The notes beneath the pieces were generated by a model that was not told where the DNA came from, searched no databases, and saw only the letters and a list, made by a program, of their open reading frames with translations. Made by a program: the position numbers and the translations under genes. DNA of 64,000 nt from Enterococcus hirae ATCC 9790 (GTDB lineage Bacteria; Bacillota; Bacilli; Lactobacillales; Enterococcaceae), in the NCBI RefSeq assembly GCF_000271405.2, contig NC_018081.1, positions 649,606-713,605 of the forward strand, written 5' to 3'. This document shows positions 18,061 through 30,533 of the stretch, piece after piece; the stretch's first letter is position 1; each line of letters opens with the position of its first letter.

Positions 18061-18344
18061 TTCGCTCCTACTTTCTTCTTAAATTTTGCTATAAAAAGGG
18101 TTCCTGTGATTCACAAAGAAAATTATAGCATTTTTTGATTCAACTTACATTCTTACTTTTGTATTCGACTGCCACATAGATCAAATAAGGAAAAAACCAT
18201 CAGTAATCATGAATGCGTGTTATGTACGAATAATCAAAGGACTAACCCTATTCTCCGACCCTGAAAAAGGGAGATAAAGACAAAGCACCTGACCTGTTCG
18301 TTATTCGAAATAAGACAGCATAAGCAAGATTATCGTAATAGCAA
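18061..18344. other. Intergenic region before repeat array B
   Basis: About 280 bases without a gene; AT-rich promoter-like DNA for the upstream membrane gene, no clear hairpin. Confidence 0.4.
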
Positions 18345-18459
18345 GAGGCTGTGAAAGAAGCGTTCAGCTCCGAGCGAATAAGAGAGGATTTTTTAAAATA
18401 GCTCCTCATATTTTAGAAAATCATCGATTATTGTTGAGGAGTTGTTTCTTGAACGCCGT
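18345..18459. repeat. Hairpin repeat array B, unit 1 (115 bp)
   Basis: Nearly identical to 11551-11665, differing mainly in the right half of the stem (AAAATCATCGATTATT instead of AAAATCCTCTCTTATT) and in GAACGCCGT at the end. Confidence 0.9.
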
Positions 18460-18465
18460 GAATCA

Positions 18466-18580
18466 GAGGTCGTGAAAACATCGGGTAGCTCTGATGACAA
18501 TAAGAAAGAATTTTTTGAAACAGCTTCTCATGTTTTGAAAAATTCAGGCTTATTTCAAGGAGCTGATGTTTGAACACCGT
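18466..18580. repeat. Hairpin repeat array B, unit 2 (115 bp)
   Basis: By eye identical over 115 bases to 11429-11543. Confidence 0.9.
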
Positions 18581-18587
18581 TTAGCAA

Positions 18588-18701
18588 AAGGCTGTGAAAG
18601 AAACGACTAACTCCGAGCAAATAAGAGAGGATTTTTTAAATAGCTCCTCATATTTTAGAAAACCATCGATTATTGTTGAGGAGTTGCTTTTTAAACGCCG
18701 T
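18588..18701. repeat. Hairpin repeat array B, unit 3 (about 114 bp)
   Basis: Same class as units 11551-11665 and 18345-18459 with scattered substitutions. A degenerate fourth unit follows at about 18731-18837, still with CTCCGAGG, AATAAGAAAA and a CACCTT end. Confidence 0.85.
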
Positions 18702-18837: not shown

Positions 18838-19308
18838 GGCAAGAAATCGTGAAAGAAGCTTTTCTTCTTTCTGTTCAAATTATTCTAAGATTTCTCTTCA
18901 CCAACATCATTTTTCATAGCGCACAAATTTTTAGAACATAAATAAATCCCTTATGCTAAGAGCACAAGGGATAAAAAATCTTTTACACTTCATTCGTGTA
19001 AGGGTCCCATCAAAATTAAATTGATGCACCGAAAAATAGTATTATTTGTATACGGTTAATTCTTATTTACAAATTAATTGTATTTTCTAAATTCTTTTTT
19101 GTCAAGCCACTTATAAACCTTGACTTCTTCTATTAATTAATAATTTTCCCCATATTAACTATCTCTTTAGAAAGAATAAAACAAACAAAGGTTTCTATAA
19201 AATCCATCATAAAAGCGCATTTATTTCTATACTTAAATGTGAATAAATTATCAATCTACGGTTTAGTCAGAACTCTTTATCCTATGCCATAAAAAGGAGA
19301 TCTTTTAT
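18838..19308. other. Intergenic region between repeats and integrase remnant
   Basis: About 470 AT-rich bases. A small hairpin lies at 18947-18971 (TCCCTT...AAGGGA). No gene is seen. The left boundary of the older rplT insertion should be here or farther left; no second rplT fragment is recognisable. Confidence 0.4.
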
Positions 19309-19628
19309 GATATAAATTAAACAATACAAAAAGCAGATAACACAATCAATTACATGTTTGATTACTATGTAGGCACTAGTCCTATAACTAGTAAGAAAAT
19401 TAGAACCGAGTATAAAAAGAAGACTAGTAAAGACCTAACATTTATTACTATTCATAGTTTTAGGCATACGTATGTAAGCCTACTTTAGTTATCAGAAAGA
19501 AATCTAAAAAAAGTACAGGAATATTTCATTCTAATGTGAAAACTACACTAAATGGATACACGCATTTAAATGATAAGTACAGTGATCAAACCGCTGATAA
19601 GCTAATGGAGTTTATGAGTTTAGATTAA
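19309..19628 (+). pseudogene. Decayed integrase of an older rplT-inserted element
   Basis: The sequence before and at the start (CTTTATCCTATGCCATAAAAAGGAGA) matches that of the intact integrase at 28943, and the first ~45 codons and last ~60 codons correspond to its N- and C-terminal ends with the middle deleted. There are several stops and frame changes. It ends beside an AACCCACT-type terminator and the rplT fragment, as the intact one does. It marks a previous insertion at the same site. Confidence 0.85.
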
Positions 19629-19686: not shown

Positions 19687-19858
19687 TTATTTAGCTAAAG
19701 CATCTTTAGCTTGGTCAGCTAATGCAGTAAATGCTGTTGCATCGTTTACAGCCAAGTCAGCTAACATTTTGCGGTTGATGTCGATTTCAGCTAATTTCAA
19801 GCCGTGCATCAATTTTGAGTAGCTTAAGCCATTCATACGAGCCGCTGCGTTGATACGA
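19687..19858 (-). pseudogene. rplT': Displaced 3' fragment of rplT (island end)
   Basis: About 57 codons matching the C-terminal part of ribosomal protein L20 at 30171-30533, ending at a normal stop (19687-19689) but with no start. Identity to the full gene stops abruptly after TTGATACGA at 19858. The tail residues differ (KDALAK versus KALENK), so the two 3' ends have separate histories, as expected when an incoming element brings its own rplT end. Confidence 0.9.
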
Positions 19859-19983: not shown

Positions 19984-20478
19984 TTAGTTCAATGAATTAC
20001 TTCCAAAGAACATTCTACTTGTTTGCCCAACACTACTGTCTGCTTGAGGATATAATTTAAATAGTTCTTGATATATTTGTTCAATTTCTTTATTAGAAGT
20101 AACCACTTTATCTAATCGAAAAACCACACGAAATTTATCTAGGTTAGAATTTTTATCACTAAACGTTTTATATATAAAACAAGCATATTCTTGCATCAAC
20201 GAATCAGATTCCAAGTCTTCCAATGTATACAAATTATTTTCATCTTTATTATCAAAATCGAGCATTATTAATTCTTGACCAATAATCTCTGTATACTTAG
20301 ACAACTTAGGCTCTTTTAATTCAGCTAATACAACAGTTTTACCGTCCACAGCGAGTTCTTCTGCAAATTCCTGCATTGAAATATCTACTAATGTATTCAT
20401 TATAGTGTTAGATATTTTGCGGATGGTTATTGGATTGGGTTTTTCTTTATTCGGAATATTACTTAGATATACTTTCAT
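19984..20478 (-). CDS. Primase-polymerase-like protein, probably truncated
   Basis: 164 residues. IMLDFDNKDENN (about 70-81), DKFRVVFRLDK (about 119-129) and VGQTSRMFFGSN (about 150-161) resemble the N-terminal catalytic half of plasmid/satellite primase-polymerases, whose usual length is much greater. It stops right after this motif, near the island's left end, so the helicase or C-terminal part is missing. ATG at 20478 has GTTGGAGG upstream. It overlaps the 3' end of the HTH gene by 20 nt, so the two are co-translated. Function may be lost. Confidence 0.55.
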   Translation of the reverse strand: MKVYLSNIPNKEKPNPITIRKISNTIMNTLVDISMQEFAEELAVDGKTVVLAELKEPKLSKYTEIIGQELIMLDFDNKDENNLYTLEDLESDSLMQEYACFIYKTFSDKNSNLDKFRVVFRLDKVVTSNKEIEQIYQELFKLYPQADSSVGQTSRMFFGSNSLN

Positions 20479-21447: not shown

Positions 21448-22368
21448 TTACATGAAAAAGTGGTCAAACATTGCAATAGTGAAAAAATATTGTTCAAATT
21501 CAGCTAACACTCCATCGAACGCTTGTTTATATAAATAAATAGGTTCATTATTATCGGTTAGTGAGACATATACGTTATCCAAATGAGAAGTATTTTTTCC
21601 ATTTATACTCATTTGGTTGTTTAAAACCGCAAGTGATGGAGCTTCCTCATTTTCTAGACTACTTAACATTTTACTTATATCTCTTGTGTCCGTTGCTTGC
21701 TTTGAATGGATAGGTTTTACTACCAGTAATGCTTTTTCTACACGATTTTCTTCTGTTACCAAGTCTTTTACAGTGTGTAAACTTATTATTATTTCATCAG
21801 CTTTTTGAGTTACTAAATAATAATTTGTTTCTCCAGAACCTTGATTTAAAAGCAGAGTCACAAATTTATCATATTTACTACTATCAATTTGTAGATTTGA
21901 ACCAATTTCTGTTGCCTCTACTACTTCGGCTTTAGAGTTACCTATATAAAAAAATGGGTTTGAAGCACTAGGATTCCCATTATAAAATAAAGTGCCTACA
22001 TTTAATCCATCCATCTCAAAAGCTTCATAAATATCTTGTTGATTTACAACAATATTCGTATTGAACCTATCATCCTCAGTTTTTATTTTATCTTCTAAAG
22101 ATACTTGAAAGGTGCTTTCATCATTTTTCATTTGTATAAATTGGTCTATCACACTTAATTCTTCAACTTTTTCAGTTGAAGCTGTAGGTATATTACTGTT
22201 AGAACTACTTTCATTTTCAATAGATTCTTCTTTAATTGTCGAAGAATTGCTATTAACTGCTTTTGCTACCACTGGTTCTTTTATTTGTGAATATAAATAA
22301 GCTCCTGTTCCCCCGCTTATTATAGCAATTCCAACTAAAGCTACACCCATCTTTAACCATTTTTTCAT
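21448..22368 (-). CDS. Membrane-anchored extracellular protein, unknown
   Basis: 306 residues. An N-terminal Lys-rich segment is followed by one hydrophobic helix (about 9-27), then a Ser/Asn/Glu-rich linker (38-65) and a globular extracytoplasmic domain; no lipobox is clear. Start at 22368 (MKKWLKMG) chosen for AGAGGTG 6 nt upstream; a GTG at 22377 is also in frame. Genes on both sides are small; the neighbour is a membrane protein. Function not recognised. Confidence 0.7.
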   Translation of the reverse strand: MKKWLKMGVALVGIAIISGGTGAYLYSQIKEPVVAKAVNSNSSTIKEESIENESSSNSNIPTASTEKVEELSVIDQFIQMKNDESTFQVSLEDKIKTEDDRFNTNIVVNQQDIYEAFEMDGLNVGTLFYNGNPSASNPFFYIGNSKAEVVEATEIGSNLQIDSSKYDKFVTLLLNQGSGETNYYLVTQKADEIIISLHTVKDLVTEENRVEKALLVVKPIHSKQATDTRDISKMLSSLENEEAPSLAVLNNQMSINGKNTSHLDNVYVSLTDNNEPIYLYKQAFDGVLAEFEQYFFTIAMFDHFFM

Positions 22369-22385
22369 TTTATTCACCTCTTCTG

Positions 22386-22813: not shown

Positions 22814-23383
22814 TTATTTTCTGGATAAACCCTCATTTTTAGCTACATTATAAACTGTTTTCACGCTAACATTACATTTCATAGCAATTTCATTTAGTGA
22901 TAGCTCTTTTTTATCATACAATTTAATAATTCTCTTTTTTACGTTATTTTTAATAGGTGGTCTGCCCAATCGTTTATCTGTATTCGCTAGTGCTTCTTTT
23001 GTTCGAATGCTAATATTTTCAGCTTCAAATTCTGCTATCGCTGCAAGCATCGTATAAAATAATCTACCTTGAGCAGTTTTAGTATCTACATTTTCCTGAA
23101 TACTTTTTAAGTAAACACCCCTTTCGTTCAGTTCCGACATTAAATTAACTAATTGTCTTGATGACCTGCTCAATCTCGATAAATTATAGACAAGTAACGT
23201 ATCTCCTTCATCCAAACTATCTAGAGCTTTTTGAAATTCACTTCGATTCTCTTTTCTTCCAGATATTTGTTCTGCATAAATAATGGACGGTGAAAACTTT
23301 TCTATCGCTTTCTTTTGGACTTCCAATCCAAGTTCTTGTCTATTTGTTGACGTTCGAATATAGCCGATAATTCTATTATTCAT
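22814..23383 (-). CDS. Serine recombinase / resolvase
   Basis: 189 residues, the usual small resolvase/invertase length. N-terminal catalytic domain with GYIRTSTNRQ (catalytic Ser near 12), LLVYNLSRLSRSSRQLV (Arg pair), AQGRLFYTMLAAIAEFEAENI, then LGRPP and a C-terminal helix-turn-helix (LSLNEIAMKCNVSVKTVYN). ATG 23383 with AAAAGGAGGG. Probably resolves multimers or inverts DNA for the mobile element; target sites were not identified. Confidence 0.93.
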   Translation of the reverse strand: MNNRIIGYIRTSTNRQELGLEVQKKAIEKFSPSIIYAEQISGRKENRSEFQKALDSLDEGDTLLVYNLSRLSRSSRQLVNLMSELNERGVYLKSIQENVDTKTAQGRLFYTMLAAIAEFEAENISIRTKEALANTDKRLGRPPIKNNVKKRIIKLYDKKELSLNEIAMKCNVSVKTVYNVAKNEGLSRK

Positions 23384-25912: not shown

Positions 25913-26485
25913 TTATTGAAACGGATTAAACTCATCCAAGCTTGATTGAAGCTCTTCTTCTTCAATTCCTATGTATCTTAGAGTTACACTCTGGCTACTA
26001 TGGTTTAAAATTTTCATCAATGCCGTTAAATCCTTTGTTTTCTGATAATAGGTATAACCAAAGGTTTTTCTTAATGTATGAGTTCCTATATAGTCTAAAT
26101 CAAGGAAATTAGCCGTTTTCTGCATAATCTTATAGAACTGATGTGTAGCTAAATGTTTCGTATTATCCCTAGGTGATGGAAATAACCACTCACTTTCCCC
26201 ATCATGTTCTTCGTCTAGGTATTTAATTATTTGATTCGTTAATTGCATCAGATTAAGTGTTCTTTTCTTTCCTGTCTTTTTCTCAATAATATTCGCTTTT
26301 AATTTCCCTTTTACATCTTCCACTTTTAGATTCAATATATCTGAAATTCTTAGTCCAGTAAAAACCCCAAACATAAATATTGTATAGTCCCTTTGTCCAT
26401 GTTTGTTTCTCAACAGTTCGTTTGAGAAATTTATTAATACTTCCCTAGATTTAATTGGTTTGACATTAATATTTCCTTGTGGCAT
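25913..26485 (-). CDS. Short tyrosine recombinase (XerC/D-like)
   Basis: 190 residues, essentially the catalytic domain only, without the usual N-terminal SAM-like arm. TGLRISDIL (Arg I), a Lys in the beta hairpin (KKTGKKRTLNL), HTLRKTFGY (His-x-x-Arg), LNHSSQSVTLRYIG (His and nucleophile Tyr). ATG 26485 with GGAGGGAGG. Similar short enzymes are known on Gram-positive plasmids for multimer resolution; this would be a third recombinase in the island. Confidence 0.9.
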   Translation of the reverse strand: MPQGNINVKPIKSREVLINFSNELLRNKHGQRDYTIFMFGVFTGLRISDILNLKVEDVKGKLKANIIEKKTGKKRTLNLMQLTNQIIKYLDEEHDGESEWLFPSPRDNTKHLATHQFYKIMQKTANFLDLDYIGTHTLRKTFGYTYYQKTKDLTALMKILNHSSQSVTLRYIGIEEEELQSSLDEFNPFQ

Positions 26486-26713: not shown

Positions 26714-27634
26714 TTATTTATTTCTCAAACTCTCATTTATTTTTTTTGACAGAGTTCTCCCTATACCTGTAAAGAATTTATTTTCTTTTTTAGGTGTCCA
26801 TTTCTTGCTATCTAATTCATCAGAAAACATTATTATTAGTGAAGGAATTACGTCTATAAAGCATTTCAAAACAACAATAGATTCTATTGTTTCTGCCATT
26901 TCAAAGTATTCTGCTCCTCTATATTCATTAACGTCTATATCCACATAACTTTTCTCACCTAGGGTTAAAGAAAAATACTCTTGAAATCTTGTTAACTCTA
27001 CTTTAACACTTGAGATTTCCTTATTTTCAAATAAAAATAAGAGAGTTGTTAGCATGTTTAAAATTTTCTCTCCAGAACCCGAAATTTCTGCTAATTTATC
27101 TTTAGTTTGTCCCTTAAAACTAGTCAACTTTAGTAATTTAGTTTCACTGTCCTTTTCCAAAAAATCATCTGGATTATCTATTAAATAATGTGTCATCCAA
27201 ATAAACAAATCTGTTTTTATCCCCAAAACTCGTTGTTCTGTTATAGTTAAATCTTTTTTATAACCGGCTAACTTTCTTAAATTTTTTAGGGTACTATTAT
27301 TGTATCTTTTATTACATATGTAATGATTTTTACCCTCATAGTTAAAAATAATCACATTCATCGCATATGTAGAAACACGCTTTTCTCGACGTGGATTCAC
27401 AGCTTCATGATTTTTAACGTATTCATAGTTAAATTGCAAGTAATTATAGTAAATATCTTTACCATTTATTATCGTAAATTGGTTTTCTTCATATACAAAG
27501 TCAACTTCATAATTCAGAGGAGTATTATCAAAAGCATCAATCTCTCTTATATGATTTTGTTTATTTACTTTTATATTATTAATTAAATCATCCAAAGAAA
27601 TATTTGAATTATCAATCCATTTAGAATAAATCAT
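26714..27634 (-). CDS. Unknown 306-residue protein, third gene of the putative defence operon
   Basis: Soluble, charged protein with no signal peptide. N-terminal mixed part (about 1-80), VNVIIFNY-like strands near 90-105, a central helical part, and LTTLLFLFENKEI near 200; the end is basic (WTPKKENKFFTGIGRTLSKKINESL). No nuclease motif is certain. ATG 27634 with AGGAGGAG upstream, 17 nt after the membrane-protein gene. Size is about that of KwaB in the Kiwa system, but I could not match it to any family. Likely cofunctional with the two upstream genes. Confidence 0.6.
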   Translation of the reverse strand: MIYSKWIDNSNISLDDLINNIKVNKQNHIREIDAFDNTPLNYEVDFVYEENQFTIINGKDIYYNYLQFNYEYVKNHEAVNPRREKRVSTYAMNVIIFNYEGKNHYICNKRYNNSTLKNLRKLAGYKKDLTITEQRVLGIKTDLFIWMTHYLIDNPDDFLEKDSETKLLKLTSFKGQTKDKLAEISGSGEKILNMLTTLLFLFENKEISSVKVELTRFQEYFSLTLGEKSYVDIDVNEYRGAEYFEMAETIESIVVLKCFIDVIPSLIIMFSDELDSKKWTPKKENKFFTGIGRTLSKKINESLRNK

Positions 27635-27651
27635 AACTTAAAACTCTCCTC

Positions 27652-28278
27652 CTACTTTTGCAACAATTGAAGTCTTTTACTATCTATATTCGTCATACCA
27701 AGACATTTCCAACCGCTTTCTTTTTCGCAAACAAGATAATCATTATTTCCTTTATTATGCTCTTCTAATAATAAAATAAATTTAATTTCTCTTGTAATCG
27801 ATATTCCTTCTTTGGGGCTTTTCTGTAAAATTTTATTTATATCAATTTCATATTCTTCAGAAGTAGAAATTTCTTTTACAAAAGAAGAACTCTTATTGTT
27901 CTGCACTTGTAATAAGTAACAATCAGGAGCTTTTAATGAAATCAATGGGCATTTCCTCTTTTTACCCTCTATTTTAATGTTAGCTTTTATTTCCAATTGT
28001 TTATCTATATCCTTATCATAAAGAATTAGTTTGTCAGATTCTTGTTCTATTGCTTCTATATAAATTCTAATTATTAACTTATTTTTTTTATAAAAATAGT
28101 CTATAGCGGAGAATAAACTATTTCCAATAAAACTAAATATAGCAATATCAAATCCTGTAAGGATTTTTGTGTCTGGGATATTAACAAAAAAATGAGCAAT
28201 CGGTATAAAATAAGAACAAACTCCTGAAATAATAACAATTATTAACTGCTTTATTTGTTTAAATATTTCATTCTTCAT
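27652..28278 (-). CDS. Two-helix membrane protein with cytosolic domain, second gene of the operon
   Basis: 208 residues: two hydrophobic segments near 10-30 and 40-60, then a ~145-residue soluble domain (LIIRIYIEAIEQESDKLIL...). The ATG overlaps the stop of the upstream gene by 11 bases (ATGAAGAATGA), a strong coupling sign. Membrane-anchored sensor or effector is plausible by layout only. Not a recognised family. Confidence 0.65.
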   Translation of the reverse strand: MKNEIFKQIKQLIIVIISGVCSYFIPIAHFFVNIPDTKILTGFDIAIFSFIGNSLFSAIDYFYKKNKLIIRIYIEAIEQESDKLILYDKDIDKQLEIKANIKIEGKKRKCPLISLKAPDCYLLQVQNNKSSSFVKEISTSEEYEIDINKILQKSPKEGISITREIKFILLLEEHNKGNNDYLVCEKESGWKCLGMTNIDSKRLQLLQK

Positions 28279-28753
28279 AAAAGTACCTCAGAAGACATTT
28301 AGAAACGAAGCTATCAAAAACTTTCTCAATTTTTCGTCCTAAACAAATACCATTTGATTTAATAGTAATTTCAGAACTAGTATTTTTATTTAAAAATCTA
28401 AGTTCCATAATATCTATAGATTCTTTGTCTGAAATCCATTCTAATTCTGAAACGATTTTATATATATTATTTGGTTGCGTCCTCAATTGCAGTAACCAAT
28501 GATTAAGCTCTTCTTGAATACCATCCTCTGCATCTTCAGACATTTTTATCTTGGTTAAAACAATATCTGAATTTTCAGAAGTAGCTTTTACTAAAAAAAG
28601 CATCAGTTCTGTATTAAATAAAACTTGTCTAAATCCTCTTTTTCTTTGCGACTTGATAAAATCAGAATAATTAATCTCAGAAGAATCATATGGAATCAGC
28701 AAAAATTCACATGAATTACGGTCTACTTTTTTAAAAATTTTAGCAAATTCCAT
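28268..28753 (-). CDS. Unknown 161-residue protein, first gene of the operon
   Basis: Soluble, mixed alpha/beta composition, no signal peptide (MEFAKIFKKVDRNSCEFLLIPY...). ATG 28753 with TTAGGAGATG. Co-translated with the membrane protein gene. It lies just behind the integrase, facing away from it, where cargo such as anti-phage genes is often found. Function not recognised. Confidence 0.6.
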   Translation of the reverse strand: MEFAKIFKKVDRNSCEFLLIPYDSSEINYSDFIKSQRKRGFRQVLFNTELMLFLVKATSENSDIVLTKIKMSEDAEDGIQEELNHWLLQLRTQPNNIYKIVSELEWISDKESIDIMELRFLNKNTSSEITIKSNGICLGRKIEKVFDSFVSKCLLRYFYEE

Positions 28754-28942
28754 AAAAACATCTCCTAAATTTTGATGGTATATTCAATATTTATTATACA
28801 ATAAATCTTCATTAGTAAACAGAAAATTCCTATTTCTCTGGGAAAAAGTATAAAAATCCACTTATACTTCTTATAGAATTCTACTACTCGATATCATATA
28901 ATAGTCTCAACTTTATCCTATGCCATAAAAAGGAGAATTTTT

Positions 28943-30109
28943 ATGGCACAAATTAAACCATACAAAAAACAAGATGGCACTATCAATTATATGTTTGATT
29001 TTTATGTAGGCATCAATCCTAAAACTGGGAAGAAACAGAAAACAACTAGAAGGGGGTTTAAAACAGAGGAAGAAGCTAGTTTAGCATTAGCGGAATTAAG
29101 TCTTTTGGTTGCAACTGAACAGTATGTACCTAAGAAACACCATACCTTTAATGAAATTTTCACACTATGGTATAAGCAGTATTGCAACCTAGTAAAGGAA
29201 AGCACTGCAGTTACAGCTAAATGTGAATTCAAGTATGCAATATTGCCAAAATTTCAAGAAATGAGAATCCAAGACATTACTCCAATTTATTGTCAGCAAA
29301 TAGTAAATGAATGGTATAAAGATAAACCAAAAAGAGCTAGTAGGTTTATTTACTATTTTAATAGAGTAATGGAACATGCTATGTTCTTAGAATTAATCTA
29401 TCAAAACCCAATGGCTAATGTTAAAAAAACAGTAACCAATCTTAATTTAAATCATTATGAAGAGTTTTCAAATTTTTTTACTAAAGAAGAATTAATCGAG
29501 TTTCTGAGATTTACAAAAGAAAATTTTGATTCTGAAAGATATGCCTTTTTTAGAACACTGGCATTTACTGGATTACGCAAAGGAGAAGCATTTGCTTTAA
29601 CTTGGGAGGATGTTAATTTTGACGAGAAGTATTTAGAAGTAACTAAAACTGTTGCTAAAGGAGACAGAAACAAAATCCTAATTCACCCACCGAAAACAAA
29701 GGCTGGTTTTAGAAGAATAAGTTTGGACAATGCCACATTAGAATCTCTAAAGACATGGCGTGAAAAACAAGCAATAAAATTTGGTTTACCTAAGATAAAT
29801 CCTAATCAGATTATTTTTTCTAATTATAAAAATACTTATCTCGAATCAGGTATAACTAAAGAGTGGTTTTTAACAATTCAGAGATTGTATAGGAAAAAGA
29901 CTGGTAAAGAAATCAAAACAATCACAATGCACGGTTTTAGACACACACATGCAAGTCTATTATACAAAGCAAATATCCCAATTAAAGAAGCTCAAGAAAG
30001 ACTTGGACATTCAAATGTGAAAACGACACTGAACATTTACACTCACTTATCCAAAGACCAAAGAGATAAAACAGCTAATCGTTTTGCTGAGTTTATGAAT
30101 GAAATATAA
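28943..30109 (+). CDS. int: Island integrase (tyrosine recombinase, Tn916-Int type architecture)
   Basis: 388 residues. N-terminal arm-binding-like domain (about 1-60), SAM-like core-binding domain (about 65-165), catalytic domain with R212 in TGLRKGEA, H330 and R333 in HGFRHTHAS, H356 in LGHSNVKTT and Tyr366 in LNIYTHLS; all present. ATG 28943 with AAAAAGGAG. Ends 61 bases from rplT, the insertion target. A decayed copy with the same leader lies at 19309-19628. Inserts the island into the 3' end of rplT. Confidence 0.95.
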   Translation: MAQIKPYKKQDGTINYMFDFYVGINPKTGKKQKTTRRGFKTEEEASLALAELSLLVATEQYVPKKHHTFNEIFTLWYKQYCNLVKESTAVTAKCEFKYAILPKFQEMRIQDITPIYCQQIVNEWYKDKPKRASRFIYYFNRVMEHAMFLELIYQNPMANVKKTVTNLNLNHYEEFSNFFTKEELIEFLRFTKENFDSERYAFFRTLAFTGLRKGEAFALTWEDVNFDEKYLEVTKTVAKGDRNKILIHPPKTKAGFRRISLDNATLESLKTWREKQAIKFGLPKINPNQIIFSNYKNTYLESGITKEWFLTIQRLYRKKTGKEIKTITMHGFRHTHASLLYKANIPIKEAQERLGHSNVKTTLNIYTHLSKDQRDKTANRFAEFMNEI

Positions 30110-30170: not shown

Positions 30171-30533
30171 TTACTTGTTTTCTAGGGCTTTTGAGGCTTG
30201 GTCAGCTAATGCAGTAAATGCTGCTGCATCGTGGACAGCTAAGTCGGCTAACATTTTACGGTTGATGTCGATTTCAGCTAATTTCAAACCGTGCATCAAT
30301 TTTGAGTAGCTCAAGCCATTCATACGTGCTGCTGCGTTGATACGAGCAATCCACAATTTACGGAAGTCGCGTTTCTTTTGACGACGATCGCGATATGCGT
30401 AGTTGTATGAATTCATTACTTGTTCTTTTGCTGTTTTAAATAAAGTGTGTTTTGAACCGTAGTAACCTTTTGCTAATTTTAGCATTCTTTTACGACGTTT
30501 ACGAGTGACTGTTCCACCTTTAACACGTGCCAT
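30171..30533 (-). CDS. rplT: 50S ribosomal protein L20
   Basis: 120-residue L20, an early-assembly 23S rRNA-binding protein and repressor of its own operon. Starts [29 protein letters not shown], typical of the family. Third gene of infC-rpmI-rplT. Its 3' end is the insertion site of the island; the last ~57 codons are duplicated, with differences, at 19687-19858, so part of the present 3' end may have come with the element while the protein remains complete. Confidence 0.98.

Follow-up and report, generated by a model that had tools for sequence, protein, structure and literature searches.

Layout of the three-gene set

We analysed a stretch of 64,000 nucleotides (the window) from the 2.86-Mb genome of Enterococcus hirae ATCC 9790 (NC_018081.1, positions 649,606 to 713,605), in which three genes, named here A, B and C, lie behind the integrase of an element at rplT. 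A sequence-only reading had described this triplet as an operon in integrase cargo position, proposed it as a new defence system and noted a resemblance to Kiwa. The three open reading frames (ORFs) of 161, 208 and 306 amino acids (aa) were found on the minus strand with exactly the lengths and coordinates of that reading (Table 1). The last 11 bases of A are shared with B, a gap of 17 bases lies between B and C, and AGGAGGAG precedes C, again as described. The integrase beside the triplet is indeed intact: its ORF is full-length, lies between the triplet on one side and rplT on the other, and reads away from the triplet. Fewer promoter-like sites were found at the triplet than in shuffled sequence. 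A site scan found no terminator-like site, and an AT-rich hairpin 3' of C was noticed by eye only. In searches with Pfam, NCBIfam and PADLOC, no match to any of the three proteins passed the cut-off, and the statement that none belongs to a nameable family was upheld.

Table 1. Positions of the triplet and of the associated element features in the window
Feature	Position	Strand	Description
Gene A	28268..28753	-	161 aa, soluble; profile like C residues 138-234 (ORF list, hhalign)
Gene B	27652..28278	-	208 aa; two predicted membrane helices (2-24, 37-65) and immunoglobulin (Ig)-like beta sandwich (68-208)
Gene C	26714..27634	-	306 aa; predicted RdgC fold
AGGAGGAG, ribosome-binding site of C	27646..27653	-	Read from sequence
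Tyrosine integrase of the rplT element	28943..30109	+	388 aa; Pfam Phage_integrase, E 4.6e-26
rplT	30171-30533	-	
rplT segment duplicated as attachment site, integrase side	30196..30345	.	93% identity to 19709-19858 over 150 bases
Far copy of the rplT segment	19709..19858	.	Other end of the element; repeat comparison
Second tyrosine recombinase	25913..26485	-	190 aa, just downstream of C; Phage_integrase, E 2.6e-26; element gene outside the triplet

The triplet is conserved as a set

Loci were gathered through searches with C only, and copies of A or B apart from C lie outside that search. The named relatives of C were Enterococcus proteins, the closest two being from E. faecalis (81-82% identity), and relatives down to 16% identity remained full-length. 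With alignment A3, C was matched in 2/15 genomes of the genus, 5/105 of the family, 7/395 of the order, 6/398 of the class and 3/398 of the phylum; these sets overlap, and the own genome is included in each. With the wider alignment A6, the genomes around three distant carriers gave 2/39, 1/46 and 2/108 matches, with one new carrier (G557). The C family is uncommon, and its carriers are scattered.

All 13 regions fetched contained three adjacent ORFs on one strand, ordered A-B-C, with sizes of 160-191 aa (A), 191-238 aa (B) and 306-347 aa (C). Early profiles recognised A in 11 and B in six of these regions, the others being assigned by place, size and helix; a simple scan found at least one hydrophobic segment in B in every region. 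The same arrangement was seen in two further regions (L054, and L055, which is the E. casseliflavus locus again) and in the four records opened out of six plasmid records matching C. In total, about 14 lineages carry the triplet when near-identical loci are counted once, and in all 17 loci analysed the genes were packed closely together. Six close relatives of B were found by sequence search, without genomic context. Because relatives of C remain full-length down to such low identity and every fetched region has the same three-ORF order, the arrangement goes beyond chance, and the triplet is kept as a set. The evolutionary distances of A, B and C were correlated as well (Mantel r 0.87-0.92, p 0.0001, 14 loci), although shared species descent may contribute to this value. 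The three genes form a real set, for which the searches made yielded no earlier description.

Predicted structures of C and B

The predicted structure of C matched the RdgC fold in a fold comparison, with 229-239 residues aligned, i.e., nearly the whole chain; C is therefore predicted to have an RdgC fold. The RdgC family model (PF04381) had no match in C at E <= 10 and none in the genome, while the E. coli control matched. When all alignment members (27 C, 17 B and 15 A proteins) were scanned with Pfam, no consistent family emerged; for C, this covers the 25 weak families listed out of 27. Weak single-member matches were dropped as inconsistent: DUF4852 (2/27), HHH_8 (4/27), DUF7034 (1/27, E 0.0005), CS, Transcrip_reg and CTD8. 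Sequence searches of the Protein Data Bank were empty or at noise level and gave nothing useful. Residues 171-200 of C (window about 27035-27124) contain its most conserved glycine-rich stretch, GFKG...GSGEK, together with the lowest AlphaFold2 certainty (predicted local distance difference test, pLDDT, 57-66), and appear to form a conserved flexible loop.

The AlphaFold2 model of B (pLDDT 84.0; predicted template modelling score 0.71) supported the two membrane helices that had been read from the sequence, followed by the Ig-like beta sandwich. The top fold matches of B (integrin, pilin and cohesin domains) represent a common sandwich and were not taken as function. Structures of RexA, KwaA, KwaB and Cap15 were absent from the fold matches listed for B and C, which proves nothing.

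Protein A is probably related to the second half of C

Profiles were compared with hhalign, using 100 column shuffles and a reversed profile as controls. The A profile (15 rows) aligned to C residues 138-234 with a score of 33.8 (P 2.7e-4, probability 42%); the best of 100 shuffles scored 17.7, so that none reached the real score, and the reversed profile scored 14.5. The P value depended on the choice of rows: it was 1.5e-4 with divergent rows alone and 0.0026 with window-like A against divergent C, and no similarity was seen when both profiles consisted of close Enterococcus rows (P 0.35). None of nine other pairs had P < 0.02; C-RdgC had P 0.023. C-RdgC, A-RdgC, C-KwaB and B-KwaA nevertheless beat all of their own shuffles, the last three narrowly (A-RdgC 19.1 against at most 18.2), and B-KwaA was outscored by its own reversed control. 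As A-RdgC and C-KwaB also passed, the shuffle null is lenient, and weight was therefore placed on P values and fold. These profiles suggest that A is probably a relative of the second half of C, which, from the published comparison of RexA and Iml3, should hold the dimerisation sheet.

Neighbouring genes and the rplT element

Pfam was run on 30 selected neighbours and PADLOC on 10. In five of the approximately 14 lineages, genes of the kind usual in defence islands occur within about 7 kb of the triplet. In L026, BrxF, BrxC and PglXI of a bacteriophage exclusion (BREX) set follow C, the first of them after 0.7 kb. In L054, a type III restriction subunit lies 82 bases before A, followed by a methyltransferase and an SNF2-type helicase. 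A 1059-aa SIR2-domain protein is encoded 0.7 kb after C in L024, and then HsdM and HsdS. L027 has a Schlafen-group helicase with a GIY-YIG domain and a C5 methyltransferase, and L023 and related plasmids have an Eco57I/ResIII protein. In four more lineages, the triplet lies within or close to a mobile element: that at rplT in the window, L025 and L028 (D5-type primases), and L034 (beside IS66). A LAGLIDADG endonuclease neighbours the triplet in L029.

Judging from the 150-base rplT repeat, an element of about 10.5 kb lies in the 3' part of rplT and comprises the integrase, the triplet and the genes as far as about 19.9 kb. The G+C content is 0.255-0.311 across 19-30 kb (1-kb windows). In E. 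casseliflavus and E. gallinarum, the triplet lies beside the same integrase at rplT, and C is 98% and 90% identical, respectively. Viral contigs gave no match to the integrase and, by the patterns tried, none to C.

Several other features of the element were observed. A serine-resolvase-like ORF (189 aa, 22814-23383, minus strand) was noted by eye. Also by eye, a 164-aa ORF (19984-20478, minus strand) starts like a 619-aa ORF of the E. casseliflavus element (L055:568-2427); therefore, the window element seems to keep only the first part of that gene. A 309-aa ORF lies at 21448-22377, where sister elements hold ORFs of 610 aa (L006:13032-14864) and 765 aa (L007:14407-16704) with secretion-signal-like starts, which are absent from the window element. 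Just outside the far attachment copy, a 61-base segment (19275-19335) repeats the integrase gene's start region (28911-28971) with 89% identity and is probably a remnant of an older element at the same site. A block of about 120 bases occurs in two neighbouring copies at 18339-18701 (59 + 70 bases at 88-93% identity, spacing about 243).

A RexAB-like mechanism is proposed

We propose that A, B and C constitute a mobile anti-phage system of three components that works like lambda RexA/RexB, a reading to which we assign a probability of about one half (0.52). A phage-defence function as such is likely, at about three in four. Computation shows that the gene set is conserved, that C has a predicted RdgC fold, that B is a membrane protein of the layout given above, that A and C have similar profiles, and that part of the lineages lie in a defence or mobile-element setting. 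RexAB-like working is favoured because an RdgC-fold protein is coupled to a membrane protein and accompanied by a probable C-related subunit, partly in defence settings. From the sequence-only reading, the unnamed three-gene operon on an integrative element stands, as do its conservation and, in about one third of lineages, its proximity to anti-phage systems; the Kiwa likeness was not supported.

According to the available text of PMC11077077, lambda RexA has two domains structurally homologous to RdgC and Iml3/Chl4, dimerises, binds DNA without specificity and makes physical contact with the membrane protein RexB. The same text describes RdgC as binding DNA without sequence preference and Iml3-Chl4, of the same fold, as a chromosome-segregation pair. 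In the part of PMC12894663 available, RexA of P. putida RexAB binds DNA, and the membrane protein RexB causes membrane damage and growth arrest with no depolarisation that could be measured, the activating trigger being still unsettled. Our literature searches, some of them weak and with subscription journals mostly uncovered, paired RdgC with anti-phage defence only in PMC11077077 and one phage-genome paper.

By analogy, C would bind or encircle DNA, or a complex of DNA and protein that arises in the course of infection. A, as a smaller probable relative of its second half, would pair with C and either complete the clamp or hold it inactive. The signal would then pass to B, whose cytoplasmic Ig-like domain may dock C or A, and the two membrane helices of B could assemble into a lesion or channel, leading to growth stop and aborted infection.

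Like RexAB of lambda and P. putida, the triplet encodes an RdgC-fold soluble protein with a small membrane protein and has a partly mobile-element setting; the RdgC/RexA fold is predicted for C, the RexA side being taken from PMC11077077 in its available text. In contrast to RexAB, the triplet has the additional C-related gene A, is found on Bacillota chromosomes and plasmids, shows no cI neighbourhood in the ORF maps read and has no sequence match to the RexA and RexB models. The PADLOC RexA/RexB models matched none of seven A or C relatives nor window A, B and C, while the lambda control matched at E 1e-108 and 9e-61. Since neither the RexA and RexB models nor a four-helix partner was found, the triplet is not classed as RexAB. 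Likewise, C resembles RdgC in fold over nearly the whole chain and in length (306 against 303 aa), yet it has no RdgC family-model match, belongs to a strict operon with A and B and occurs in defence settings.

Several observations weigh against the RexAB-like proposal. B has two predicted helices, whereas RexB has four. C showed no hhalign similarity to lambda RexA (P 0.53; 52 of 100 shuffles reached the score), although RdgC against RexA was equally blank (P 0.41). The available text of PMC11077077 reports that DNA binding by RexA failed to correlate with exclusion of T4rII, a finding that makes any simple model of DNA sensing less convincing. The net charge of C is not basic, at about -2 in the window protein and down to -23 among 27 rows, and this and the lenient shuffle control slightly lowered our confidence in the mechanism. 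No relatives of C were found among 50,697 phage records. In five of the approximately 14 lineages (L029-L032, and L033 on a 3-kb contig), the small number of neighbours scanned included neither a defence gene nor a mobile one, and without a random-gene control the defence neighbourhood is an association, not a statistic.

Alternative explanations

KwaB binds phage DNA. The triplet could sequester DNA at the membrane by a Kiwa-like logic, with B as a membrane sensor and C, with A, clamping phage DNA to block replication or transcription without cell killing. In both systems, a membrane protein is accompanied by a soluble partner roughly 310 aa long, of DNA-binding fold in C, and the sequence-independent DNA binding of RdgC would suit this role. 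However, the triplet has three genes rather than two, B has two helices rather than the four of KwaA, and the KwaB domain (DUF4868, PF16162) has no match in C. The hhalign comparisons with three KwaB proteins (C: P 0.11; score 19.2, against at most 18.7 in 100 shuffles) and three KwaA proteins (B: P 0.17; 15.1 against at most 14.4) were not significant. Kiwa membership was rejected on these grounds; since both scores lie just above the shuffles, only membership is rejected, and a very distant link may exist. We consider DNA sequestration of this type unlikely.

Alternatively, C and its partners may hold or protect element DNA at the membrane, in segregation, recombination control or repair, with no phage role. 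Several triplets are on elements and plasmids, RdgC genes were found in 1,228 of 72,556 plasmid and 385 of 50,697 phage records, and the segregation function of Iml3-Chl4 would fit. Against this, triplets also lie beside BREX and type I and type III restriction-modification genes in genomes of unrelated families, and no common segregation partner gene was seen by eye in the ORF maps read. Element maintenance also appears improbable.

Nucleotide signalling, in which A or C would make or hold a nucleotide that gates B, is very improbable. B shares two N-terminal helices and a beta domain with the 2TM-beta effectors of cyclic-oligonucleotide-based anti-phage signalling systems (CBASS; Cap15) and Panoptes, but the operon has no signal-making enzyme, C has a predicted RdgC fold, and no nucleotidyltransferase or cyclase domain was found in window A or C or among the families listed for their relatives. 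Membership was rejected as Cap15 (PF18153) was absent both from the genome and from the 11 families to which the 17 B proteins gave matches.

Implications

Beyond the RexAB-like proposal itself, we tentatively raise a bolder possibility, which at present seems doubtful: the triplet may be the first bacterial heteromeric RdgC-fold clamp, in which C and A, as unequal related subunits like Iml3-Chl4, are tethered to the membrane by B as a phage-DNA alarm, forming a three-component Bacillota immune family without sequence relation to systems in the libraries searched. The likeness to Iml3-Chl4 (CENP-L/CENP-N) of kinetochores is one of common arrangement only, with the A-C pairing itself supposed.

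If these proposals are true, membrane-coupled sensing by an RdgC fold would be a general immune design, as the same clamp fold would be used without sequence relation to RexAB, and the triplet would provide Gram-positive models for testing such sensing. It would also be a bacterial parallel to the heterodimeric kinetochore clamps and a new family beyond the Pfam, NCBIfam and PADLOC versions searched.
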